Assembly: GCA_019635635.1 (NCBI GenBank)
Contig: JAHBZB010000001.1
Span: 248,001 to 312,000 of the forward strand
Length of the DNA: 64,000 bases
Direction of reading: 5' to 3'
From: Xanthobacteraceae bacterium
GTDB lineage: Bacteria; Pseudomonadota; Alphaproteobacteria; Rhizobiales; Xanthobacteraceae
Made by a program: the position numbers and the translations under genes
In this document: positions 43,698-57,320 of the stretch, piece after piece
Numbering within the stretch: the stretch's first letter is position 1
Layout: the number at the start of each line of letters is the position of its first letter
Notes under the pieces: generated by a model
Told to the model about the DNA's origin: nothing
The model's database searches: none
The model's input: only the letters and a program-made list of their open reading frames with translations

Positions 43698-44678
43698 TCA
43701 GAATGGTCCGTATTTCACGCGGATATAGGCGGGCAGCATGGTGACGATGACCAGCACCGGGAAGATACAAAGCACGAGCGGCACTGAGAGCTTGGCGGGC
43801 AAGCTGTAGGCCTTCTCCTCCGCGGTCGAGAGCCGCTTGTGGCGCATGTCGTCGGAATAGACGCGAAGCGCGTCGGTGAGGCTGGAACCCAGTTCAGCGG
43901 ACTGTTGCAGAAGGGTCGCAAAGGCGCGCGCTTCCTCAAGTCCGAGACGATCCGCGAGATGCTCGAGCGCCTCGCTTAGCGTCCGGCCAGCACGGATTTC
44001 GAGTGTCGCCATATGAATGTTCGCGCTCAGCGACGGATAGGAATCCGAAAGCTCGCGGCCCACCCGGTCGAGCGCCGCTTCGATCGAAAGTCCGGCATCG
44101 GCGCAGACCACGAGCAGGTCCATGAAATCGGGAAAACCCGCGCGATGCTCGACCTGCCGTGCCTTGATGCGGCGGTCGAGATAAAGGCTTGGCGCCATGT
44201 AGCCGACCATACCGGCGCTGATGACGCACATCCAGAACCAGCTCGGCGTCAGACCTGGCAGCGCCATCGGCACCAGCGGCAAAGCCGCGCCGGCAAAAAG
44301 GATCGCAAGCGCGGTACGCGCGATGAAGAAGAAGCCCGGCGCACGCGGATCGAGGATGCCGGCCTCGACCAGGCGCTTGCGCAGCACCTTCATGTTCGCG
44401 TCGTCGGCGGAGGCGTAGTGCTTGGTGGTGTATTCGATCAGCTTCTGCGCCGCCGTGATGCTCGAGAACCGCAGCGAACGCTTATCGGCGGCATCGTTGA
44501 CGCGCCCCGGAATATCGACGGTGATGGCCGCGGCGCGGCGCTTGAGCTCTGCGCGACTTTTCATCACCGACATGATGCCGAGCGAAAGCGCTGCCGCCGC
44601 GAAGAAGATCAGCGCGCTGACCAGCGTCACCGGATTGTTGCCGAGGACCGGCGCGAACGCGGAAAGAATCGTATTCAT
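43698..44678 (-). CDS. tadC: Tad pilus inner-membrane platform protein TadC
   Basis: 326 residues. Hydrophobic segments near 15-35, 118-138, 142-163 and 295-317. The T2SS-F domain sits at about 180-290: FPDFMDLLVVCADAGLSIEA and LEEARAFATLLQQSAELGSS. With TadB it forms the platform on which pilin is assembled. It starts 4 bp after the tadB stop. Confidence 0.9.
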   Translation of the reverse strand: MNTILSAFAPVLGNNPVTLVSALIFFAAAALSLGIMSVMKSRAELKRRAAAITVDIPGRVNDAADKRSLRFSSITAAQKLIEYTTKHYASADDANMKVLRKRLVEAGILDPRAPGFFFIARTALAILFAGAALPLVPMALPGLTPSWFWMCVISAGMVGYMAPSLYLDRRIKARQVEHRAGFPDFMDLLVVCADAGLSIEAALDRVGRELSDSYPSLSANIHMATLEIRAGRTLSEALEHLADRLGLEEARAFATLLQQSAELGSSLTDALRVYSDDMRHKRLSTAEEKAYSLPAKLSVPLVLCIFPVLVIVTMLPAYIRVKYGPF

Positions 44679-44682
44679 CTCG

Positions 44683-45651
44683 CTAGATCCTGAAATTCAC
44701 GAGACGCCACATGATGTAGTTTCCGGTCAGCATCCATGCGGCGGCGCAGCCGAGCACGATCTTGGTGAGATCGATGTGCCAGACTTTGCCGTAGAAATCC
44801 GGCGTCATGCTCTGAAGGATTGCGAACATCGCAACCGGAAGGCCCGAGAGAATGAAGGCGGAATACTTACCTTCCGCCGCCAGCGCCTTGACCTTGCGCC
44901 GCATCTTGAAGCGCAGACGGATGATCGCAGAAAGATTCTGCAGGATTTCGCTCAAGTTGCCGCCGGTCGAACCCTGAATGGCGACCGCGGTCACGAATAG
45001 CGGCAGATCGTCCTGCCCGACCCGGAAGTAAAGATTCCGCATTGCGGTTTCGAGATCCGCGCCATAGGTCACTTCGTCGGAGACGATGCCGAATTCGGAG
45101 CCGACGGGATCGGGCATTTCGCGCGCGACCATGGAGATCGCGACCGGCACCGGATGGCCCGCCTTGAGGCTTCGCACGATGATGTCGATCGCGTCGGGGA
45201 ACTGCGCGCCGAACATCTTATGACGGCGCGCGCGCTTCGCACGCAGCATCATGAGCGGAACGAGGATCGCGCAGAAGAAGGCCGCGATCGCCGCTTGAAG
45301 GATCGAGCCGCGCATCATCCAGGTGAGTGCGAGAATCACGACAAACAGAACGCCGCAGACGATCATCAGCTTGCCGACCCGCATCTTCACGCCGGATTGC
45401 AGCACCAGACGGTTGAGCGACGTGAAGGCGCTCGCATAAGTGCCGGCCGAGGTCAGCGAACGCTCCCGGCGCAGCTGCACCAGGATTTGTTCGCGGTTCG
45501 GCTGATGCTTCATCAGCCGGAGCCGCCGGTTCAGATGACTGCGATAAGACGCCTTGTTGTAGAAAAACAGATAGCCCGCCTCGGCGACAAGAATCGCTGA
45601 GACCGCCGCCAGAAAATAGAAGAGTGTCAGTTCGTTGATCTCGAACGGCAT
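44683..45651 (-). CDS. tadB: Tad pilus inner-membrane platform protein TadB
   Basis: 322 residues. N-terminal TM at about 9-28, two adjoining TMs at about 94-135 and C-terminal TMs near 265-315; T2SS-F domain with FPDAIDIIVRSLKAGHPVPV and TAVAIQGSTGGNLSEILQNL. ATG 45651 is the internal start that gives the usual TadB length; the longer frame upstream overlaps cpaF and is rejected. Confidence 0.9.
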   Translation of the reverse strand: MPFEINELTLFYFLAAVSAILVAEAGYLFFYNKASYRSHLNRRLRLMKHQPNREQILVQLRRERSLTSAGTYASAFTSLNRLVLQSGVKMRVGKLMIVCGVLFVVILALTWMMRGSILQAAIAAFFCAILVPLMMLRAKRARRHKMFGAQFPDAIDIIVRSLKAGHPVPVAISMVAREMPDPVGSEFGIVSDEVTYGADLETAMRNLYFRVGQDDLPLFVTAVAIQGSTGGNLSEILQNLSAIIRLRFKMRRKVKALAAEGKYSAFILSGLPVAMFAILQSMTPDFYGKVWHIDLTKIVLGCAAAWMLTGNYIMWRLVNFRI

Positions 45652-45659
45652 CGACGTTC

Positions 45660-47084
45660 CTAAAGCGGCTGGGCCGGGTCGAAATAGGCGCCGGGGATGT
45701 TGATGCCGCGCGCAACGAGGTCGGCAAGAAAGCGCGGGCGCACGCCGGTCGCACGAAACTCGCCTTCGACCGTGCCGTCGGCGGCGGTGCCGGTGCGGTG
45801 ATACTTGTAAATCTCCTGCATTTGCAGGATGTCGCCCTCCATGCCGGTGATCTCGGCGATGCTGGTCACCTTGCGCTTGCCGTCGGAGAGACGCTGCAAC
45901 TGCACGATCATGCGCACGGCCGAAGCGATCTGGCCGCGGATCGAAGCAATCGTCATGGGCATACCGGCCATGCCGATCATCTGCTCGAGACGCGAAATCG
46001 CCTCGCGCGGGGCGTTCGCGTGGATCGTCGCCATCGAGCCTTCGTGGCCGGTGTTCATCGCCTGCAACATGTCGAACGCCTCTTCGCCGCGACATTCGCC
46101 GAGGATGATGCGGTCGGGACGCATACGCAGCGCATTCTTGACAAGTTCGCGCTGGCGAATTTCGCCCTTGCCTTCGATATTTGGCGGCCGCGTTTCCATG
46201 CGACCGACATGCGGCTGCTGAAGCTGCAATTCGGCGGCGTCTTCGATCGTGACGAGACGCTCCTTCTCCGAGATGAAAGCGGAGAGCGCATTCAGCATCG
46301 TGGTCTTGCCGGAACCGGTGCCGCCGGAAATCAGGAGCGTTACGCGCGCCTTCACGGCGGCGGCAAGCACTTCGGCCATCTGCGGACGGATCGCGCCGAT
46401 GTCGATCAGTTTGTTGAGGTTGAAGGGCTTCTTGGAAAACTTACGGATCGAGACCAGCGGACCATCAACCGCGATCGGGCGGATCGCGACGTTGACGCGC
46501 GAGCCGTCGAGCAAACGCGCATCGCAAAGCGGATGCGATTCGTCGACACGGCGGCCGACCGCGGCGACGATCTTGTTCACGATGCGCAGGAGATGCGGCT
46601 CGTCCTTGAAGCGCACCGGAGTCGCTTCGAGCATACCGAGGCGCTCGACGAAAACGCATTCCGGACCGTTGATCAGGATGTCGTTGATGGTCGGGTCTTT
46701 CAGCAGCGGCTCGATCGGACCGAGGCCGGTCATCTCGTCGATGATCTCGCTGACGAAGTCGTCGAGTTCGTTGCCGTTCAGCGCGATGCGCTCGGCCTTC
46801 GTGAACTGCGAGACCATGTTGTAGACCTGCCGGCGGACCTCCTCCTCCGGCATCTTGTCCATCGCGGACAGATTGAACTCTTCGATCACCTTGCGGTGCA
46901 GGCGCACTTTCGCGTCCAGCATCTTGCCGGTGATCAGGAGATTTTGCGCGCCCTCCGGCTCGGGTTCGGGTTTGCTCGCAAGATGATCGAGCAGCGACGG
47001 CTCGAGCTTCGGCGCCTCGACCACCGGAAGCGTTGCCGGCTGCGAAGCCGCGGTTCGCGCGCTGAAACGTCCGAGTACGGGCAT
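45660..47084 (-). CDS. cpaF: Tad pilus ATPase CpaF/TadA
   Basis: 474 residues, secretion-ATPase family. Pro/Glu-rich leader to about 45, N-terminal domain to 230, Walker [10 protein letters not shown] at 254-262, Asp/Glu box and Walker B within [20 protein letters not shown], then [20 protein letters not shown] with the conserved His. It powers pilus extension and, in the Tad system, retraction as well. It starts 4 bp after cpaE. Confidence 0.94.
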
Positions 47085-47087
47085 GCG

Positions 47088-48287
47088 CTATCCTGCCTTG
47101 CTGAACATGCGCGAAATTCCTTTCGCCTGCTTGGTTTCCTTGGCGGCCGGAAGAATGAGTTTTTTCAGCGCCAGCACGACGTTGTTGCCGGGCTTTACTT
47201 CCTCGAGCGGGATGCCGCGGTCGATCGCCTCGCGCACGATACGGAAATTGTTCGGCACCGAGCCGGCGAAGGCTTTGCCGAGCGCGCTCTCGATGTCGGC
47301 AAGCCTGAGACCCGGCGCGAACATGCGGCTCTCGAAGCGATTCACGATCACCTGCGGATTCGCACTTTCGCCGAGACGCTCGTTGATCGCGGAGACGAGT
47401 TTCTTCGCATGACGCAGACCGGGAATCGTCATTTCGCTGACGATGAAAAGCTTGTTGGAGCCGAGCAGTACGCTGTCGGTCCATGGAAACCAGGTGCGCG
47501 GCATGTCGATCACGACATAGCGGAAGTGCGAGGACACGAGATCGAGGAGCCGCGTTACCATAACCGGATCGAACGAGCGCATTTCGGCGGGCCGATTTGG
47601 CGCCGCGATCACCGAGAGGCCGGAGGAATGCTGCGTCAGCATGATCTCGAGCAGATGCCGGTCAAGCCGTTCCGGGCGCGGCTCGATTTCGCTCAGGTCG
47701 AGGCGTGGCTCGATGTCGAGATAATCGGCGACCGCGCCGTGCTGGAAATCGAGATCAACCAGACAGGTCGAAGAGCCGCCGCGCGTCGAGTCCTGCAACA
47801 GGAGCGCGGACTGAATCGCGATCGACGTTACGCCGACGCCGCCGGCGGAAGGCAGGAACGTAAAAATTTCGGCTTCGGCGGAAGATTCGCACGCTGCCGG
47901 CGTCTTCGCCGCACGCGCGCAGGCGCGCACCAGCTCGATCGGCGCGACCGGCTTCACCAGAAAATCCGCCACGCGAATCTGCAACAGGCGTCGCGCGACA
48001 TTCTCGTCGAACAGCTGCGTGACGACGACCGTGGGTGCGCCTCCCGGCCTCGTGGTAATGCGCGAAAGGGCTGCGACCTGCGCTTCGTTCGAGGCGTCGA
48101 GATCGACTACGATCACGGCGGCGTTGTCGAGCGGCGCATCCTCGATACGGGTGAGATCCGCCTCGAGCATTTCCAGCGAAATCTGAAGTTGCGAGGAAAA
48201 GGTATTTTCGACCATCCGCCGGAATTCTGCATCCGACGAAATCGTCACGACGTGCGTCGCGCCCCTTTTCTTGCTTTGCTCGTTCAT
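47088..48287 (-). CDS. cpaE: Tad pilus localisation protein CpaE/TadZ
   Basis: 399 residues. An N-terminal receiver-like domain (about 12-125) lacks a clear phosphoacceptor signature, followed by a ParA/MinD-like domain with the modified P-loop LPSAGGVGVTSIAIQSALLL (no Lys in the usual position), DLDFQHGAVADYLDIEPRLD and RYVVIDMPRTW. CpaE places the pilus machine at a cell pole. The 192-bp upstream gap carries a hairpin and a small palindrome (ATGCG TTT CGCAT at 48403-48415), so cpaE may have its own promoter. Confidence 0.9.
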   Translation of the reverse strand: MNEQSKKRGATHVVTISSDAEFRRMVENTFSSQLQISLEMLEADLTRIEDAPLDNAAVIVVDLDASNEAQVAALSRITTRPGGAPTVVVTQLFDENVARRLLQIRVADFLVKPVAPIELVRACARAAKTPAACESSAEAEIFTFLPSAGGVGVTSIAIQSALLLQDSTRGGSSTCLVDLDFQHGAVADYLDIEPRLDLSEIEPRPERLDRHLLEIMLTQHSSGLSVIAAPNRPAEMRSFDPVMVTRLLDLVSSHFRYVVIDMPRTWFPWTDSVLLGSNKLFIVSEMTIPGLRHAKKLVSAINERLGESANPQVIVNRFESRMFAPGLRLADIESALGKAFAGSVPNNFRIVREAIDRGIPLEEVKPGNNVVLALKKLILPAAKETKQAKGISRMFSKAG

Positions 48288-48434
48288 CGCGCCCAGTAGT
48301 CCCCGGCATTGGCCGCATTTTTCGCGGCTTCCTTGCCTCCAGTTCTAGCGTGGGGCGCCTTTCTTCTCGATGAAATTGAGGAATTGAATTGAGTAGAATT
48401 TTATGCGTTTCGCATGAAATCCGGAAACGAATTT

Positions 48435-48461
48435 CCCGCCCGCGCGGAAAGCACGGGCGGG
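48435..48461 (-). terminator. Hairpin after the small Tad-locus lipoprotein gene
   Basis: Stem CCCGCCCG / CGGGCGGG with an 11-base partly paired loop, 18 bases after the stop. On the minus strand it is followed by AAATTCGTTTCC, so termination is probably partial. It separates cpaB-cpaC-lipoprotein from cpaE onward. Confidence 0.6.
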
Positions 48462-48479
48462 ACCAATTTATCGCCGCGG

Positions 48480-48806
48480 CTACTTCTGGTCGTTCTGTGA
48501 AGCGGCGCTCGGCGAAATCTCGATCGAGCTGGTGCCGAGGCCGCGCGGCGGCGTGACCTTGCCTTCCTTGTAGCGCTGGATCGCAGGCTGGATTTTTTCG
48601 CCGTTGGTCTGAATGTCGCGGTAAGCGGCATGACGCGGCCACGGATCGATGGTCTGCGAGGCAATGTTCGATGCGTTGGCGTCGCCCGCCGACAGATGGA
48701 TCGCATCGCGGCGGTCGTAATAGATGTCCGGTCCGGCCGAACAGGCGGCGAGCGTCGCAGTCAATACCAGCGCTGCGACGGCTTTGTTCAGACGGTCAGT
48801 GGCCAT
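48480..48806 (-). CDS. Small lipoprotein of the Tad locus (CpaD position)
   Basis: 108 residues. Lipobox LAAC (TATLAACSAGPDIYYDRRDA) gives a mature protein of about 88 residues with TIDPWPRHAAYRDIQTNGEK and VTPPRGLGTSS. It has the place of cpaD between the secretin and cpaE genes, but CpaD is about twice as long, so this may be a shortened CpaD-type lipoprotein or another component. ATG 48806 has GGAG and overlaps the secretin gene by 11 bases, indicating translational coupling. Confidence 0.75.
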   Translation of the reverse strand: MATDRLNKAVAALVLTATLAACSAGPDIYYDRRDAIHLSAGDANASNIASQTIDPWPRHAAYRDIQTNGEKIQPAIQRYKEGKVTPPRGLGTSSIEISPSAASQNDQK

Positions 48807-50235
48807 TGGTGATCTCCGGAAGATCGAGTTGATGGCCGACCTGCGAGCGCTGCGTGATGGGGCCATAGAGTTTGCGAACGTCGGCGGCGGTCATTTCCAT
48901 CTTGCCGTAGAGGAACAGGTCGTTGTCGTTCGGCGGCACAGTCGCATCAAGCGGCGTGCGCAACACGTCGCCGGGCCGCGTCGGCCGCACGAGGCGCGGC
49001 GTCACGATGATCACGAGATCAGTCTCGCGCTTCTGGAACGAGGCGGAGCGGAACAGCGAGCCGATCACCGGCACCTCTGCGATCCAAGGAAGCTGATCGG
49101 CGGTCGTGCTGTTCGTCGCCTGCAAGAGGCCCGCGATCGCGAAGCTCTGGCCGTCACGCAATTCGATCGTGGTGCTCGCGCGACGCACGATCAGGCTCGG
49201 CACCGCGATGTTGCCGACCTGCACTACGTTGGTCGGGTCGAGCTGGCTGACTTCCGGCTCGATCTTCAGATTGATCAGGCCATGCGAAAGCACGGTCGGC
49301 GTGAAGGCAAGACCGACACCGAATTTCTTGAACTGGATCGTGACCTGGTTGAACTGCGATGCGACGGGGAACGGAAACTCGCCGCCCGCAAGGAAGCTCG
49401 CCGTGTCGCCGGATAGCGCGACGAGATTCGGCTCGGCGAGACGGCGCGCGACGCCCTTCTCCTCGAGCGCGTTGATCATGGCGTCGACCTTGACGCCCCG
49501 GTCGATCAGGCGGCCGAGCACGGAACCGAACGGCGTGCCCGAGAGCACACCCGCGGTGCCGGCGGTCGCGAGTAGATTGTTGCCGGCGACGTCCCAGCGG
49601 ATGCCGAGTTCACGGCCCGCGTTGCGCGAGGCTTCGATGAAGCGGACTTCGAGCAACACCTGCTGTGGCTGCGCGACGCTCATCGAGTTGATGACGTCCG
49701 GGCTGAACTGCTTGGCGAATTGCAGCGCCTTGTCGAGCGTCACCGCGTCGGGAACGACGCCGGACAGCATGATGCGGCCGTTGACGGTAGAGACGCGAAC
49801 CTTGGCTTCGGGAAACTGCGCGCGGATCGCCCCGGCAATCGCGTTGGTATCGTGCGAAACCTCGACATCGAACACGCCGACGAGCTGCTTTCCCTCGCCA
49901 TAAACCGAAATGCGGGTCAGGCCGACCTTGCGGCCGAGCACGGAGAGTGTGCGGTCGGTGAGCGGCATCACGTCGGCGATCTCCGGATCGCCTACCACGA
50001 CATCGGCGAAGCCTGCGCTGGTGCGGATATTCTCCGACTTGCCGAGCGGGACCAGTACTTGCGAAGTACGCTCGTTCGGAGAGAGTTTCACGAGACGCTT
50101 GTTCGCTTGCGCCTGCGCTTCGCTCGCGGCGATGGACGCGAGCGGGCTCGACAATGCAAGCAGCGCGACGAGCCAGGAGATCGTGGCGCGCCTGAAGAGC
50201 GCCCAGCCGACTAGGTTGGATTGCTTCGTGTTCAC
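48796..50235 (-). CDS. cpaC: Tad pilus outer-membrane secretin CpaC/RcpA
   Basis: 479 residues. Signal peptide to about residue 43 (...SEAQA). N-terminal domain with LVPLGKSENIRTSAGFADVV and DRTLSVLGRKVGLTRISVYG, BON-like part, and secretin domain from about 195: QPQQVLLEVRFIEASRNAGR, LSGDTASFLAGGEFPFPV and IVTPRLVRPTRPGD. It forms the outer-membrane channel. The start is GTG 50235; a longer open frame runs upstream through cpaB and is rejected. Follows cpaB by 26 bp. Confidence 0.9.
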   Translation of the reverse strand: MNTKQSNLVGWALFRRATISWLVALLALSSPLASIAASEAQAQANKRLVKLSPNERTSQVLVPLGKSENIRTSAGFADVVVGDPEIADVMPLTDRTLSVLGRKVGLTRISVYGEGKQLVGVFDVEVSHDTNAIAGAIRAQFPEAKVRVSTVNGRIMLSGVVPDAVTLDKALQFAKQFSPDVINSMSVAQPQQVLLEVRFIEASRNAGRELGIRWDVAGNNLLATAGTAGVLSGTPFGSVLGRLIDRGVKVDAMINALEEKGVARRLAEPNLVALSGDTASFLAGGEFPFPVASQFNQVTIQFKKFGVGLAFTPTVLSHGLINLKIEPEVSQLDPTNVVQVGNIAVPSLIVRRASTTIELRDGQSFAIAGLLQATNSTTADQLPWIAEVPVIGSLFRSASFQKRETDLVIIVTPRLVRPTRPGDVLRTPLDATVPPNDNDLFLYGKMEMTAADVRKLYGPITQRSQVGHQLDLPEITNGH

Positions 50236-50261
50236 GTCTGTGCCCCGTTTGCCCGCCAGCC

Positions 50262-51143
50262 CTAGCGGGTCGCCTCTTGATTGATTGCGCTGTTGGTGAG
50301 CGTCTTCTGTGTTGCTTCGGCGGGAACGCTGTAGTTTTCCTTCTTCGTTCCGCGCGTAACCGTAATCGTCGAATAATTTCCGTTCGGACCGTTCTTCTTC
50401 TGCGATTTGCCGAGATCTTCCGAGGTGATCTGGCGCGACGGCTGGGCGGCAAGATCGCCGGCCTTGCGCAAGGCGAGCGTTAGCGTGCCGAGCGACGCAG
50501 CGAGCGCCAGCTTCTGGCCATCGGACATTTCGACTTCGAGCGTCACGGCCTTGACCACGGCCGGTTTGTCGATGCGGTCGTCCGCGATCTGGTCGATCGC
50601 AAGTACGCGCACGTTTTGCAGCACGACGTCGGAACTGCTGTTCGCGTTCACGCCCCGCTCGGATGAAGTGTTCCGGGTAAGGAGAATGTCGACGCGGTCG
50701 CCGGGCAGCACGAAGCCCGCGACGCCTTCGATATCGTTCACGCGAACAGTGACGGCTTTCATACCCGGCGTGAGCACGGCCGAAAGCGTGGCGCGCTGGC
50801 CGGGACCGGTGATCTTGGCGGCGAGCACCGGCTCGTTCTCGGCAATCGCGGTCAGCACCATGCGCTTGCCGGCCGAGAGCAACGCTTCGATCGAAGCGAA
50901 CGATCCGTCCGGCACCGCGTTCTCGGGCCATGGCACTTCGCGCAGATTGCCCGCATTCAATTCGACGCCGAAGCGCAGCGGCGCAGTCGCCACCACGATC
51001 TTGCGCGTCTTCACCGCGACCGGCGCGGGAACGTTTTTCAGGCGCGCGTCGTTCTGACTGTTAAGCCAGGATTGCGCGACGAAAACCGCGAGCGCGCCGA
51101 AAACGAGCGCGACGACGATCATGAGAACGGCGCTGATACGCAA
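50262..51143 (-). CDS. cpaB: Tad pilus assembly protein CpaB/RcpC
   Basis: 293 residues. N-terminal membrane anchor (4-24), SAF domain at about 45-115 (VVATAPLRFGVELNAGNLRE), then GMKAVTVRVNDIEGVAGFVL and PGDRVDILLTRN. CpaB acts in the periplasm with the secretin. The start is TTG 51143, preceded by GGAG nine bases upstream. It is the first gene of the pilus operon and is divergent from the rpfF-like gene across 497 bp. No Flp pilin gene is next to it. Confidence 0.88.
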   Translation of the reverse strand: MRISAVLMIVVALVFGALAVFVAQSWLNSQNDARLKNVPAPVAVKTRKIVVATAPLRFGVELNAGNLREVPWPENAVPDGSFASIEALLSAGKRMVLTAIAENEPVLAAKITGPGQRATLSAVLTPGMKAVTVRVNDIEGVAGFVLPGDRVDILLTRNTSSERGVNANSSSDVVLQNVRVLAIDQIADDRIDKPAVVKAVTLEVEMSDGQKLALAASLGTLTLALRKAGDLAAQPSRQITSEDLGKSQKKNGPNGNYSTITVTRGTKKENYSVPAEATQKTLTNSAINQEATR

Positions 51144-51640: not shown

Positions 51641-52606
51641 ATGAGCCAGCCGAAATACACTTTGATCTCGAACCCTTGGTTCGTGCCGCCTGAAAATTAC
51701 GGCGACGCCTACCATCTGCCGCCTGCGCAGGCGAAATTTACCAGCCAGCGCTTTGCCGAACTTCAGGTCGAGTTCGACGAAAAGACGCGCGCCTGCTGGT
51801 GCTTCATGAAACCGCACGGACGCCCAAGCTACACGCCGGGGCTTTTGCGCGATCTCGATACGCTGCAACAGGCGATCAAGAAGGAAAGCACCGAGGCGCG
51901 CGCGAACCGCGAACTGCCGGTGCAGTATTTCGTTCTGGCTTCGAAAATTCCGGGAATCTTCAACCTCGGCGGCGATCTCACGCTGCTCGCGCACCACATC
52001 CGCGCACAGGACCGTCACGGCCTGATGTCCTATGCCCGCGCTTGCATCGACGTGCTGCATTCAAATGCAGTCGGTCTCGACGTGCCGCTGATGACGATCG
52101 CACTGGTGCAGGGAGATGCACTGGGCGGCGGCTTCGAATCCGCGCTCGCCTGCGACTTCATCGTCGCTGAACGGCATTCGAAATTCGGCTTTCCGGAAAT
52201 CCTGTTCAATCTGTTCCCCGGCATGGGCGCCTATAGCCTGCTCAGCCGGAAACTCGACGCTGCGCGCGCCGAGCGCATGATTCTCTCCGGCAAGGTCTAC
52301 GACGCCGAAGAGCTTTACGAGATGGGCATCATCAACATGCTCGTCGATTCCGGACAGGGCGAAGCGGCGTTGCGCGACTATCTCGCGAGCCGCGGCCGGC
52401 GCTTTACTTCACAATGCGCGGTCTATGAAGCGCGGCGCAAGGCGCAGCCATTGCCGTTCGAGGAACTGCGCGACATTGTTGAAATCTGGGTCGATACCGC
52501 GCTGAAGCTTCAGGAGATCGACCTGCGCAAGATGGAGCGGCTGGTCGCCGCCCAGGATAAGCGCAGGAACGGCGGCGGCAGCCTGCGGCCGGTCACCCAG
52601 GAGTAA
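51641..52606 (+). CDS. rpfF: RpfF-like DSF (cis-2-unsaturated fatty acid) synthase
   Basis: 321 residues, crotonase superfamily, RpfF group. RpfF uses two glutamates 20 residues apart (E141/E161 in Xanthomonas) to dehydrate 3-hydroxyacyl-ACP and release cis-2-enoic acid. Here E166 in QGDALGGGFESALACDFIVA and E186 in FGFPEILFNLFPGMGAYSLL keep that spacing and context. Other RpfF text: CWCFMKPHGRPSYTPGLLRD, IPGIFNLGGDLTLL, EELYEMGIINMLV, EIWVDTALKLQEIDLRKMER. It is somewhat longer than Xanthomonas RpfF (289). ATG 51641 is chosen; the frame to 51596 has no ribosome site. It converges with the RpfC-like gene, 6 bp apart. Confidence 0.9.
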   Translation: MSQPKYTLISNPWFVPPENYGDAYHLPPAQAKFTSQRFAELQVEFDEKTRACWCFMKPHGRPSYTPGLLRDLDTLQQAIKKESTEARANRELPVQYFVLASKIPGIFNLGGDLTLLAHHIRAQDRHGLMSYARACIDVLHSNAVGLDVPLMTIALVQGDALGGGFESALACDFIVAERHSKFGFPEILFNLFPGMGAYSLLSRKLDAARAERMILSGKVYDAEELYEMGIINMLVDSGQGEAALRDYLASRGRRFTSQCAVYEARRKAQPLPFEELRDIVEIWVDTALKLQEIDLRKMERLVAAQDKRRNGGGSLRPVTQE

Positions 52607-52612
52607 GTGCGT

Positions 52613-55165
52613 TCAAGCCTGCTGCGAGACTTCCGCGGAACGCTGCGAAGAATACGCCATGAGTGCGTCGCGAACGCGATCGAACTCCGAGCCGAGCTTG
52701 GCTAGATAATCGGTGCCGCGCATTTCTAGTTCGCGCTCGCCGATGTGGCGCCACGACAGACACATCTTGTAGATCCGGCGCGCGCCGATGTTCGCCGCAC
52801 CGCTGCGCATCGCATGCAACTGCTCGCGGAACGCCGTGACGTCGCCCGCTTTCGCGGACTGCTTGAGTTCGAGCAGCAGCGTTTCGGTATCGCGATTGAA
52901 ATCGCCGATCAGTTCGTCCACGAATTTCGCACCGCCAAGCACTTCGAGATCGGTCAGCGCGCGGAGATCGATCGCGGATGCGTCGGACGAACGGAATTTC
53001 GGATGCGACGTGATGCGCTTCACGGTTTCGCTTTCCGCGAAAGCCTGCTTATCGCTGACCTGCTTTTCGCCCACGATCGAATCGATAATGTTCAGGAGAC
53101 GGGCGGGCTCGATCGGTTTGATCACGCAGGCGTCCATGCCGGCTTCCTCGCAACGCTGCTTGGTTTCCGGCGTCGCGTCGGCGGTCAGCGCCACGATCGG
53201 CAGGCGCTGCTTGCCTAGCGAAGCAAAGCGATGAAGCTTCGTCGCTTCGATGCCGTTCAGCACCGGCATGTTCACGTCCATCAACGCGATGTCGAATACC
53301 TTCGCCTGCATGGCGTCGAGCGCCTGCTCGCCGTTGTCGACGATACTGACGTCGTGACCGGCGCGCTCCAGGATCTTGCCGATGACCTTCTGGTTAGTGC
53401 GGTTGTCGTCGGCGACCAGGATGGAGAGCTTGCGGCTCGGCGCGTGATTGGCGGGATTGACCTCGTCGTCCATTCCGATCGCATCGACCGCTTTTGCCGC
53501 CCGCAGTGCGGCACCCAGCGCCGCCGGCGTCAGTGGCATTGCGGCCATCGACACGAATTCGAAGCGGAGCGGAAGCGGCAGCATCGCCGCAGCGGCGGTT
53601 CCGGACAGCAGAATGAGCGAAAGGTTTGCGCCATGATGCATCTTGTTCAGCGTCGAGGCGACCGTTTCCAGATCGGCATCGAACTGATCGCCGTCGAGCA
53701 GTACAACGGTACGGCGAATGCCCGCCGCTTCGGGAAGCGCAAGCTGATCGCAAGCCTGACCCGGCGTGCGGACGACTTCAACCAAGGCGCCGAACGGCTC
53801 CAGCATCTTTTCGATGACCGCTGCGTTGTCGCTGTCCCGGGAAAGCAGCAGCACGCGCGCGTCGGAAAGATCGGGAATTATATCCGCCGCCCCGCGTTCG
53901 CGGATGCCATAGGGCAGTTCGAACCAGAAGGTGCTGCCCTCGCCGGATTTGCTGTCGACGCCGATGGTGCCGCTCTGGCGCTCGACAAGCTGCTTGACGA
54001 TCGCAAGGCCGAGGCCGGTTCCGCCGAAACGATCGACGATCGTTTCGTCGGCCTGCGTGAAGCTCTGGAAGATTTTCTCGCGTGCGGCTTCCGCGATACC
54101 GATGCCGGTGTCGGTGACTTCGAAACGGATGCGCGTCGGGCCGTCCTGCTGCCCCACGGCACAAGCGGCGATCGAGATATTGCCGCGTTCGGTAAACTTA
54201 ACCGCATTCGCGGTGAGATTCGTCAGAATGTCGTGGAGCGCCCGCGAATTGCCGTGCAGCAGGTTCGGCGTCTGCGGCGCGACGTGCAGCGAAAGCCGCA
54301 CGCCCTTTTCCTTCGCCTGCGCGACCAGCATCGAACGAACCTGCCCCATGATCGCGTGAAGATCGAAATCCACCGACTGGTCCGGCATCTGGCCAGCTTC
54401 GATACGAGAATATTTCAGAATGTCATTGATCTGGGCGAGCAGCGCGCGCGCCGAGCCGCGGATCGTCTGCGTCATGTCGAGCTGCTCGGCATTGAGCTTG
54501 GTATCGCGCAACATGTCGCTCATGCCGATCACGGCATTCAGCGGCGTGCGAAACTCGTGGCTTACGCTCGCAAGAAAGAGGCTTTTCGCCTTGTTCGCCT
54601 GCTCGGCTTCGTTCTTCGCAGCCTGCAACTTGCGGATCAGCGTCGCGGCATAGAGCGGCAGGATCACAAGGCCGCCGATCAGTCCGTATGCGAGCTTGTA
54701 ATGTGCCGCCCAGTAGCCGGTCGTAGCAACCACCGCCGAGAAGCCGGTGACGGCGACCAGCATCGAGCCGAACAGGTAGGTCAGACCGAAACGGAAACCG
54801 TTGCCGAAGATGATCCAGAGATAGATCGGATAAAGCAGCGAAAGCGTTTCGTCGCCAGCGTGAATGCCCCACGACAGAAAACCGAGATCGGAGATGATCG
54901 CAATGGTGCGGCGGGGAACCGAAACGCCCGGCTTCCACAGCATGTGCGCGAGGAACGCGAAGGAGATTCCGAAGAACGACGCGGTGAGCACCAGCGCATC
55001 GTGCACGCTGGTATCGCCGAACAACGCCGCGCCGCAGAGATAAAGCAGGATCAACGCGCTGATCACAACGCGATTGATGACCATTTCGTGCTCGCCATCC
55101 GGACGATTCTGAAGACGGCTCTTCAGAAACCCGATCGGCAAGAAACGAAATTTTTCGGCCATCAT
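52613..55165 (-). CDS. rpfC: RpfC-like hybrid sensor histidine kinase (TM-HK-REC-HPt)
   Basis: 850 residues. Five or so TM segments at about 28-50, 55-76, 88-100, 107-122 and 128-177, containing LLYPIYLWIIFGNGFRFGLT, which matches the RpfC sensor region. HisKA with H203 (SVSHEFRTPLNAVIGMSDML), HATPase_c (about 305-420; GGTGLGLAIVKQLVER), a degenerate receiver (about 435-560), a receiver with D630 (ILVADDNRTNQKVIGKILER; FDIALMDVNMPVLNGIEATK) and a C-terminal HPt with H784 (REQLHAMRSGAANIGARRIY). RpfC senses DSF and controls RpfF activity and phosphorelay. Starts ATGATG at 55165 after GAGG, 10 bases after the upstream gene. Confidence 0.88.
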   Translation of the reverse strand: MMAEKFRFLPIGFLKSRLQNRPDGEHEMVINRVVISALILLYLCGAALFGDTSVHDALVLTASFFGISFAFLAHMLWKPGVSVPRRTIAIISDLGFLSWGIHAGDETLSLLYPIYLWIIFGNGFRFGLTYLFGSMLVAVTGFSAVVATTGYWAAHYKLAYGLIGGLVILPLYAATLIRKLQAAKNEAEQANKAKSLFLASVSHEFRTPLNAVIGMSDMLRDTKLNAEQLDMTQTIRGSARALLAQINDILKYSRIEAGQMPDQSVDFDLHAIMGQVRSMLVAQAKEKGVRLSLHVAPQTPNLLHGNSRALHDILTNLTANAVKFTERGNISIAACAVGQQDGPTRIRFEVTDTGIGIAEAAREKIFQSFTQADETIVDRFGGTGLGLAIVKQLVERQSGTIGVDSKSGEGSTFWFELPYGIRERGAADIIPDLSDARVLLLSRDSDNAAVIEKMLEPFGALVEVVRTPGQACDQLALPEAAGIRRTVVLLDGDQFDADLETVASTLNKMHHGANLSLILLSGTAAAAMLPLPLRFEFVSMAAMPLTPAALGAALRAAKAVDAIGMDDEVNPANHAPSRKLSILVADDNRTNQKVIGKILERAGHDVSIVDNGEQALDAMQAKVFDIALMDVNMPVLNGIEATKLHRFASLGKQRLPIVALTADATPETKQRCEEAGMDACVIKPIEPARLLNIIDSIVGEKQVSDKQAFAESETVKRITSHPKFRSSDASAIDLRALTDLEVLGGAKFVDELIGDFNRDTETLLLELKQSAKAGDVTAFREQLHAMRSGAANIGARRIYKMCLSWRHIGERELEMRGTDYLAKLGSEFDRVRDALMAYSSQRSAEVSQQA

Positions 55166-55175
55166 CGCGTTATCC

Positions 55176-57320
55176 TCACGCGGTTCTCGCCAGCAGATTC
55201 TGCTGGTTAAAAAGGAAACCGAAGTCCTCCGCGGGAACCGGCGGGCTGAAATAGAAGCCCTGCACCTCGTCGCAACCCTCATTGCGGACGAAGGCAAGCT
55301 GTTCGGCGGTTTCGACGCCTTCAGCCATGATCTTCAGGTTGAGGCTGTGCCCAAGATTGATGATCGCGCGCACGATCGCCGCGTCGTTCGGATCGGTATT
55401 GACGTTGCGGATGAAGCCCTGATCGACCTTGAGGCGGTCGACCGGCAGGTTCTTCACGTAAGAGAGCGAGGAATAGCCAACGCCGAAATCGTCGATCGAG
55501 AAGGTGACGCCGAGTTCCTGGAGGAAGCGGACATCGTTCGCGGCCGACTCCGGATTCTGCATCAGGATGCTTTCGGTCAGTTCGAGTTCAAGCGCTTTCG
55601 GATCGAGGCCGGTTTTCTCCAGCACGTCGATCACATGCTGGCGGATGTCCTGCTTGCGGAACTGCACGGGCGAAAGGTTCACTGCCATGCGGAAGCCGGG
55701 ATGTTCCTTGGCCCAGATCTTGGCCTGCATGCAGGCCTCGAACATGACCCATTCGTTGATCGGAACGATGAGGCCATTTTCTTCCGCGAGCGGCAGGAAT
55801 TCGGCCGGGCGCACGAGACCGCTGCCCGGTCGGCGCCAGCGCAGGAGCGCTTCGGCGCCGACGATGCGGCCCGAGCGCAGATCGATCTGCGGCTGATAGT
55901 TCAGCAGGAACTGCTTCTTGGCGAGCGCCTGACGCAGATCGCCTTCGAGCACGATCGCTTCTCGCGCGGTCGCATGCATGTCGGACGCGAACACGCGCCA
56001 GGCATTCCGGCCTTCTGCCTTGGCCTGATACATCGCGAGATCCGCGTTCTTGATCAGTGCATCGACATCGACGCCGTCGGTCGGATGCACGGTGATGCCG
56101 ATGCTCGCCGTCGTATTGATTTCCTGGCCCTCGAGCTCGAAGGGCTGTTCGAGCGCTTCGATGATCTTCTTCGCGAGCGTGACCGCGTCGTCGGTGCGGC
56201 CGATCTCGGTCTGGAGAATCGCGAATTCGTCGCCGCCAAGGCGCGCGACAATGTCGGTTTCGCGAACCGTGTTGCACAGCCGCTGCGACACGGCTTTGAG
56301 CAACTGGTCGCCCTGATGATGACCGAGCACGTCGTTGACGCCTTTGAAGCGGTCGAGGTCGAGCAGGAGCAGCGCGAATTGCTTGTCGCCACGGCGGGTG
56401 CGGGCGATCTGCTTGCGGACGCTGTCATGGAAATACGTGCGGTTCGGCAAGCCGGTGAGCGGATCGTGATGCGCGAGGTGATGGAGGTGTTCCTCTGCCT
56501 GCTTGCGCTCGGTGATATTCAGGGACGTCGTGAGCACGTTCACGACCTTGCCGGCGCGGTCGCGCAACGGCGATTTCGTGGTTAGAAAGACGTGACGGTT
56601 GCCGGCGCGATCGACGATTTCTTCCTCATAGCTCGGCAGGCCCTTGCCGTTCTCGAAGACGACGCGATCGAGGCCAGCGCTTTGCGGGCCGAAATTGGAG
56701 CCGAAGATTTCGGCCGCGGTCTTGCCGCTCGCCTGGGTCGGATCGACGCCGTAGAAATTCGCGGTGAAGGCGTTGAGGAAGACGCAACGGCCGTCTCGGT
56801 CGGTCGCAGAAATCAGCGCGGGCACGGTATCGATGACCTGCGCCAGGCGCTCGCGGCTGTCGCGCAGCACTTCCTTACGGAAGCGCTCGCTGTCCATGAG
56901 TTCGCGCTCGAGCTCAGTTGCGCGGCTCTTGATGACAAGCTGCTGCTTGCGAAGCTTCAGAAGGTTGCGCGCGCGCGTGAGAAATTCGTGATGATCGACC
57001 GGGCTTTGCAGGAAGTCGGTGGCGCCAGCTTCGAGCGCCTTGATCCGGTGCGAGCGTTCCTCGTAAACGGTGATGACGACGGCCGGAACATCCACACATT
57101 CCGGAAGCTGCCGGAACCGGCGCACGAATTCCGCGCCGTTCATGTTCGGCATCTTGTAGTCGGTGACGACGAGATCGGGCGTGTTGTCTTTGAGCCAGTC
57201 GAGCGCTTCCACGGGATCGCCGAACGCGCGAACGGCCACGCCCTCTTCGATCGAAGTGGCGAGCTTCGCAAAAATGTTCCGGTTCGTAATCCGGTCATCT
57301 ACGATGACGATCAACGACAT
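55176..57320 (-). CDS. Response regulator REC-PAS-GGDEF-EAL, occupying the rpfG position
   Basis: 714 residues. REC at 1-120 with phosphoacceptor D54 (LVVTDYKMPNMNGAEFVRRF) and RpfG-like text (FGDPVEALDWL; DVPAVVITVYEERSHRIKAL; EAGATDFLQSPVDHHEFLTR). PAS at about 155-275, GGDEF at 362-366 (RLGGDEFAIL) with a full active site, and EAL at 490-492 (GAEALLRWRRP) with ELTES, SIDDFGVGYSSLSYV, LKVDQGFI and MAEGVET intact. It can in principle both make and break c-di-GMP. ATG 57320 is chosen as the start of the receiver; upstream in-frame starts at 57365 and 57404 are possible. It is co-transcribed with the RpfC-like kinase. Confidence 0.87.
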   Translation of the reverse strand: MSLIVIVDDRITNRNIFAKLATSIEEGVAVRAFGDPVEALDWLKDNTPDLVVTDYKMPNMNGAEFVRRFRQLPECVDVPAVVITVYEERSHRIKALEAGATDFLQSPVDHHEFLTRARNLLKLRKQQLVIKSRATELERELMDSERFRKEVLRDSRERLAQVIDTVPALISATDRDGRCVFLNAFTANFYGVDPTQASGKTAAEIFGSNFGPQSAGLDRVVFENGKGLPSYEEEIVDRAGNRHVFLTTKSPLRDRAGKVVNVLTTSLNITERKQAEEHLHHLAHHDPLTGLPNRTYFHDSVRKQIARTRRGDKQFALLLLDLDRFKGVNDVLGHHQGDQLLKAVSQRLCNTVRETDIVARLGGDEFAILQTEIGRTDDAVTLAKKIIEALEQPFELEGQEINTTASIGITVHPTDGVDVDALIKNADLAMYQAKAEGRNAWRVFASDMHATAREAIVLEGDLRQALAKKQFLLNYQPQIDLRSGRIVGAEALLRWRRPGSGLVRPAEFLPLAEENGLIVPINEWVMFEACMQAKIWAKEHPGFRMAVNLSPVQFRKQDIRQHVIDVLEKTGLDPKALELELTESILMQNPESAANDVRFLQELGVTFSIDDFGVGYSSLSYVKNLPVDRLKVDQGFIRNVNTDPNDAAIVRAIINLGHSLNLKIMAEGVETAEQLAFVRNEGCDEVQGFYFSPPVPAEDFGFLFNQQNLLARTA

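Follow-up and report, generated by a model that had tools for sequence, protein, structure and literature searches.

We analysed a 64,000-nucleotide window of DNA from a Xanthobacteraceae bacterium (assembly GCA_019635635.1, contig JAHBZB010000001.1, positions 248,001 to 312,000). The genome comprises 3.37 Mb in 4 contigs, with a completeness score of 100%, and its assignment to the Alphaproteobacteria (Rhizobiales/Hyphomicrobiales), proposed in a preliminary description of the sequence, is well supported. Our interest was a three-gene locus resembling the rpf genes for diffusible signal factor (DSF) signalling. On the forward strand, an rpfF-type gene (51641..52606; ATG at 51641, stop codon ending at 52606) encodes a crotonase-fold synthase of 321 amino acids. 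A gap of 6 base pairs (52607..52612) separates its stop codon from that of a convergent gene on the reverse strand (52613..55165; ATG at 55165, stop at 52613), encoding an RpfC-type hybrid kinase of 850 amino acids. The third gene, also on the reverse strand, sits at the place of rpfG (55176..57320; ATG at 57320, stop at 55176). The product is a response regulator of 714 amino acids with REC, PAS_4, GGDEF and EAL domains. Only 10 base pairs lie between the regulator stop and the kinase ATG. In Pfam searches the synthase exceeded the cut-off for ECH_1, and the regulator did so for Response_reg, PAS_4, GGDEF and EAL. The coordinates of all three genes confirm the preliminary description, in which an rpfF-like gene converged, 6 base pairs away, with a regulator-then-kinase operon. 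The xanthomonad gene order also claimed there stands in part: convergence and the order of regulator and kinase are as stated, but the output domain of the partner differs.

Sequence comparison places the synthase among the DSF synthases. It scores 375.9 bits against NCBIfam model PRK08788 (cut-off 177). The glutamates that the preliminary description had picked out, E166 and E186, are 20 residues apart and align with E141 and E161 of Xanthomonas RpfF in PDB entry 3m6m. Note that the latter numbering is that of the 3m6m chain minus 16, with a 16-residue tag deduced from chain length. Both glutamates are among 22 columns invariant across 27 aligned homologues, as are G110, G111, G163 and W283. 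An AlphaFold2 model of the synthase (mean pLDDT 89.3) was used for a fold search. The best 12 PDB matches were all RpfF or DfsA chains (E 1.2e-28 to 4.8e-25). These chains include Xanthomonas RpfF (3m6m and 3m6n), Burkholderia cenocepacia DfsA (5fus), RpF-1 (7zq7) and Cronobacter RpfF (6dgn). The next crotonase, at E 8.7e-17, was eight orders of magnitude behind.

For phylogeny, rpfF loci were sampled by BLAST (more than 165 bits to the window protein). This gave 132 loci, the window not counted, with three genomes noticed twice (L082/L110, L098/L127 and L120/L231). A tree of 128 RpfF rows (127 of the loci plus the window) and 9 crotonases, kept from 17 candidates after a motif filter, split the two sets at 100%. 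A smaller, more careful tree of 36 RpfF rows and 4 crotonases did so at 100/100. Since RpfF rows were picked by similarity to the window protein, this split is partly built in; the fold search is unaffected by that choice. The synthase does not group with non-RpfF crotonases, and an ordinary-crotonase identity is ruled out by the two trees and the fold ranking. The genome has 20 other ECH_1 matches. Within the 36-row tree, a chosen subset, the window RpfF falls inside a 98/98 clade of 22 rows, with xanthomonad-type rows outside. Six alphaproteobacterial RpfFs (L105, L106, L107, L109, L186 and L236) were left out of this subset and lie outside the main alphaproteobacterial groups in the 128-row tree. 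There, Leptospirillum RpfF (L142) falls in a group holding HD-GYP loci (97%).

The kinase is, by sequence comparison, RpfC-type. Its parts are, in order, a membrane sensor, HisKA (70.6 bits), HATPase_c (90.8), a stretch of about 160 amino acids without a Pfam match, a receiver (Response_reg, 84.7) and Hpt (28.9), with all scores over cut-off. The N-terminus is hydrophobic and contains LLYPIYLWIIFGNGFRFGLT. Together with predicted helices, these features bear out the earlier proposal of a multi-spanning sensor, histidine kinase, REC and HPt. When a xanthomonad-type RpfC (L220) was used as query, this kinase ranked first among 43 genome matches (287 bits, against 195 for the second). Furthermore, its receiver matches the RpfC receiver in 3m6m (chain D; E 8.6e-25). 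The unmatched stretch between HATPase_c and REC (residues ~421-582) is perhaps a degenerate receiver, and the shorter kinases L223 (730 amino acids) and L224 (717) may be without it. Kinases L220-L222 have 910 amino acids and seemingly a doubled input domain, whereas L223-L225 are shorter. RpfC of Stenotrophomonas maltophilia is reported to have a doubled input domain and ten membrane segments (PMC4517397).

The sensor (54596..55165, reverse strand) carries the motif RPDGEHEM and, in an AlphaFold2 model with mean pLDDT 92.7, six long helices (25-48, 52-77, 83-104, 107-126, 128-148 and 156-189). Among 36 aligned sensors, E25, R85, D93, G121, G123, R125, G127, F142 and W152 are invariant. With helix bounds fixed beforehand from the model, mean net charge across the 36 sequences was +2.11 for the N-terminus, -0.78, +2.58, -0.86, +1.53 and -0.42 for successive loops, and +0.94 for the C-terminus. 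The positively charged side of a membrane protein is, by the positive-inside rule, cytoplasmic. Given the alternating charge, both sensor ends are therefore predicted to be cytoplasmic. Three xanthomonad-type rows have lower N-terminal net charge (1, 0 and 0), and a plain hydropathy scan finds fewer clear segments than the six helices of the model. The sensor may thus have six membrane helices and a cytoplasmic N-terminus, unlike published RpfC, drawn with five helices and a putatively periplasmic N-terminus (PMC5391125). With such a topology, the kinase would detect the acid within the inner leaflet or from it. In a fold search with the sensor, none of the 84 matches listed reached E 0.001 or better.

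The preliminary description had called the locus complete. In the xanthomonad sense this did not hold. The output of RpfG is an HD-GYP domain (PMC4504480) and the window regulator carries PAS-GGDEF-EAL instead; it is therefore not an RpfG. A profile search with the HD-GYP model PF13487 found no match in the window genome, and the same model matched in 4 of 14 controls. RpfG identity is excluded on both counts. Conversely, with a xanthomonad-type RpfG as query, the regulator receiver was the best of 26 genome matches (42%, 114.9 bits; next 55.7). On this comparison, it is the genome's counterpart of the RpfG receiver, but joined to PAS-GGDEF-EAL. Residues 161-714 of the regulator align at 36-37% with two RpfR-type proteins. 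RpfR contacts fatty acid through PAS residues S169, N172, Y183, R187 and N202 (PMC6361424). By alignment, the window PAS has S, L, L, E and T at these positions, so that one of five is kept; and the regulator begins with a Response_reg domain where RpfR has an FI domain, no FI model having been run. We rejected RpfR identity for these two reasons.

Related loci place this arrangement in context. An RpfC-type kinase gene is near rpfF in 78 of the 132 other loci, and convergent with it in 74 (not in L112, L143, L144 and L155). Partners were classed by motif search, with an EAL motif required for the GGDEF-EAL class; on this basis, under which degenerate domains may be misfiled, the 78 kinases have GGDEF-EAL (32), HD-GYP (21), histidine kinase (16) or other (2) partners, with none found for 7. 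Beta- and gammaproteobacteria account for most of the HD-GYP partners, and L143 (Ectothiorhodospiraceae) is a GGDEF-EAL exception. Carriers of the GGDEF-EAL block include Methylopila turkensis, Microvirga brassicacearum, Ancylobacter moscoviensis, Agaricicola taiwanensis, Inquilinus limosus, two Rhizobium and two Pseudovibrio. We tallied 66 partners from the three main classes, leaving out the two others. Asp8, Asp9 and Asp54 of the receiver are kept in all 66; at position 84, 64 of them have Thr and 2 have Ser. The window regulator has a GGDEF motif with an upstream RxxD, and EAL motifs. GGDEF and EAL motifs mark diguanylate cyclase and phosphodiesterase domains respectively. Among the 31 GGDEF-EAL partners tallied, the joint RxxD-GGDEF pattern was missed in 13. 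The EAL motif is present in all 31 by class definition, and the DDFG pattern, which played no part in defining the class, was missed in 2.

Within the genus, all 8 genomes pass the PRK08788 cut-off, compared to 1 of 17 others in the family, 2 of 16 in the order and 24 of 385 sampled Alphaproteobacteria, window genome included. Counting the window, 7 of these 8 carry the three-gene block intact, and a contig end falls inside the kinase in the eighth (L080). Hence, the block is not a chance arrangement, and its conservation in related genomes, which the preliminary description had proposed to check, is supported. Note that L080 and L086 have a kinase fragment only, at a contig end. Compared with 6 congeners, dN/dS is low for all three genes (rpfF 0.018-0.149, kinase 0.073-0.187, regulator 0.019-0.097). 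Outside the genus, the loci from these family, order and alphaproteobacterial samples, L083-L109 (27 loci, 26 genomes), include 14 with histidine kinase partners, 3 with GGDEF-EAL, 1 with the kinase only and 9 without a whole kinase. Histidine kinase partners are thus commoner than GGDEF-EAL in that sample.

Our data suggest that the locus probably encodes an autoinducer system of the DSF type, based on a cis-2-unsaturated fatty acid, whose output has been exchanged. The synthase would dehydrate 3-hydroxyacyl-ACP to cis-2-enoyl-ACP, then cleave the thioester to free a cis-2 fatty acid. This acid would act on the membrane sensor of the kinase. As the kinase, receiver and Hpt domains suggest, phosphate would travel from His to Asp to Hpt, and on to Asp54 of the regulator. 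Phosphorylation would then shift the balance between diguanylate cyclase and phosphodiesterase, whose domains are present, and so cyclic-di-GMP. At low signal, the kinase receiver may keep RpfF inactive, by analogy with the complex of RpfF and the RpfC receiver in 3m6m. As the net effect of the signal, our guess is a decrease in cyclic-di-GMP, as has been reported for RpfG and RpfR. A search for LuxI (PF00765) gave no match in the window genome, and none in controls either, which leaves its absence unproven.

Several observations weigh against this reading. For the synthase, the cut-off of the NCBIfam RpfF equivalog NF053515 was missed (227.6 versus 550 bits). Since only 3 of 398 sampled Pseudomonadota genomes reach this cut-off, we take it to mark the xanthomonad orthologue, and therefore name the window protein RpfF-type. 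With this model, hits in families f231 and f214, which we infer to be Burkholderiaceae and Enterobacteriaceae, score lower than the window synthase (175-188 bits). In the fold search, DspI ranks among ordinary crotonases (E 1.4e-15). Because DspI is the proposed maker of cis-2-decenoic acid (PMC5834635), fold rank alone leaves the product unsettled. A tree with the known synthase groups as one clade excluding the window was not rejected (p-AU 0.154), so the bracketing of the window RpfF by known DSF producers is only suggestive. To our knowledge, the RpfF clade of the window holds no characterised DSF producer. Finally, the GGDEF-EAL label must change 9 times on the RpfF tree and 4 times on the kinase tree (75 of the 78 kinases plus the window). 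Sphingomonad rows L137, L156 and L235 fall with histidine kinase rows in the former and with GGDEF-EAL rows in the latter. Given this disagreement over GGDEF-EAL loci, synthase and kinase histories may differ.

The remaining such points concern sensing and phosphorylation. DSF sensing by Xanthomonas campestris pv. campestris RpfC needs R15, D17, S18, E19 and Q22 (PMC5391125). In the window kinase, two of these five are changed (S18 to Gly and Q22 to Met) and the R, D and E are kept, with positions placed by motif spacing rather than by the X. campestris sequence itself. The motif reads RPDGEHEM, compared to RPDSEHGQ in xanthomonad-type rows, and for this reason we say RpfC-type and not strict RpfC. 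With each distinct kinase counted once, all 21 paired with HD-GYP and all 15 paired with histidine kinases have Q in the Q22 column. Of the 31 paired with GGDEF-EAL, window included, 29 have another residue there (23 have M, 3 have I and 3 have L), and 2 have Q. The 76-row kinase tree, whose alignment retained the sensor motif columns, has a 100/100 split between 46 rows, which have Q wherever the residue is shown, and a window-type group of 30. The latter comprises 29 GGDEF-EAL-paired kinases and L087, a kinase with no partner found. L105 and L143, both paired with GGDEF-EAL and keeping Q, are placed among the 46. Since the Q22 change is confined to one branch, it is one old event and a lineage mark, rather than repeated covariation with output. 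The window regulator has Ser106 at the switch-Lys position of the receiver, which corresponds to CheY K109. All 20 HD-GYP partners have K or R here. Ser is found in 29 of the 31 GGDEF-EAL partners (T in 1 and K, from L143, in 1) and in 14 of 15 histidine kinase partners (T in 1). With Ser here, activation by phosphorylation is uncertain. It is conceivable, though we hold it only tentatively, that there is a second DSF-type branch, in which an alphaproteobacterial receptor clade with Met, Leu or Ile at Gln22 detects a different fatty acid signal and acts, via a receiver without the switch lysine, on a cyclic-di-GMP regulator with two enzyme domains.

Other explanations were considered. The RpfF homologue could be mainly an acyl-ACP thioesterase/hydratase for lipid homeostasis, with the kinase pair sensing membrane fatty acids generally. 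Several ordinary fatty acids are reportedly set free by variants of RpfF in S. maltophilia (PMC4517397), and the altered S18 and Q22 equivalents fit such a role. We think it unlikely, since all 27 aligned homologues share both glutamates and the glycines near them and an RpfC-type kinase accompanies rpfF so often (78 of 132 loci). Unlikely too is a regulator that responds chiefly via PAS, in the manner of the cytosolic receptor RpfR, and whose receiver is vestigial. The alignment of residues 161-714 with RpfR-type proteins and the lost switch lysine are in its favour; it is opposed by the single retained fatty acid contact (contacts from PMC6361424), the receiver in place of FI and the constancy of Asp8, Asp9 and Asp54. 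Recent transfer of a xanthomonad rpf cluster would account for gene order and convergence, and yet is hardly credible. The window RpfF is 43% identical to a xanthomonad-type RpfF over 252 amino acids, its 22-row clade holds no xanthomonad-type rows, the output domain differs and the flanking tad genes are common to all 8 genomes of the genus. Transfer is largely contradicted by this identity, placement and shared flank.

These tad/Flp pilus genes (43698-51143, reverse strand) are divergent from rpfF, and cpaB adjoins rpfF in 8 of 8 genomes of the genus. Pfam matches over cut-off comprise CpaB/RcpC, secretin, T2SSE ATPase and T2SSF, with a CpaE-like protein below cut-off. As a guess, the pilus genes could be a target of the signalling system. 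Elsewhere, on Methylobacterium plasmids and in several sphingomonads, a GGDEF-EAL gene is convergent with rpfF, and no RpfC-type kinase was found beside rpfF (L254 7859-10189, L257 5823-7781; also L122, L129, L138, L141, L154 and L185). The Methylobacterium GGDEF-EAL protein has PAS_7; the Sphingomonas one is without a Pfam input domain, and six sphingomonad proteins have a hydrophobic stretch aligned at the PAS position of RpfR. L113 (12767-14484) and L114 (12716-14708) have two extra open reading frames with RpfC-like sensors, recalling rpfH, between rpfC and the GGDEF-EAL gene. L114 is Inquilinus limosus and L113 is titled Mycobacterium sp. KBS0706, likely mislabelled. Homologues of rpfF occur on large Methylobacterium, Bosea and Sphingomonas plasmids (NC_010510.1, NZ_CP087107.1, NZ_CP016463.1 and NZ_CP155750.1). 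In all, 16 plasmid records match rpfF at E 1e-30 or better, two of them from E. coli. One TAG lies within the RpfF-family match of L054/L101 (genome G047).

In the literature consulted, DSF signalling is described for Gammaproteobacteria, Betaproteobacteria and Leptospirillum (the last in PMC8357829). If the loci described here work, a patchy but wide set of Alphaproteobacteria, including Rhizobium, Microvirga, Methylopila, Ancylobacter, Pseudovibrio and Inquilinus, could produce and perceive cis-2 fatty acids. One receiver with three outputs would be a natural series for studying the wiring of a quorum signal to cyclic-di-GMP, and the branch with Gln changed to Met offers a testable point for ligand choice.

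Compared with Xanthomonas rpfF/rpfGHC, the window likewise has an RpfF-type synthase convergent with a regulator-then-kinase operon, a kinase combining membrane sensor, histidine kinase, REC and Hpt, and a homologous receiver with a cyclic-di-GMP enzyme as output. It differs in having PAS-GGDEF-EAL for HD-GYP, Ser at the switch-Lys position, changed S18 and Q22 equivalents, and no rpfH between the regulator and kinase genes. The RpfF-RpfR systems of Burkholderia and Cronobacter also have an RpfF-type synthase gene convergent with others, among whose products is a PAS-GGDEF-EAL protein. However, RpfR, a one-component receptor, combines an FI domain with a PAS that binds fatty acid, while the window regulator has an N-terminal receiver and one of five PAS contacts, and a kinase gene intervenes. 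Leptospirillum, with rpfF-rpfC-rpfG, resembles the window in having RpfF and RpfC homologues outside xanthomonads, but has an HD-GYP output and a unidirectional operon (PMC8357829). Since DSF production is reported there (PMC8357829), the RpfF family makes DSF outside Gammaproteobacteria. According to KEGG, as cited in PMC8895600, alpha- and betaproteobacteria hold an RpfC-RpfG pair. Among the open-access PubMed Central matches listed, preprints excluded, there was no description of an alphaproteobacterial rpfF-rpfC-GGDEF-EAL locus, and no characterised member of the window's clade. Also related to the window are alphaproteobacterial rpfF-rpfC loci with a REC-PAS-histidine-kinase partner (16 of 132 loci), whose receiver and first PAS are 37-56% identical to those of the window regulator and whose switch-Lys position is also Ser in 14 of 15 (Thr in 1). 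Unlike the window, these have a second histidine kinase as output and keep the sensor Q in 15 of 15.

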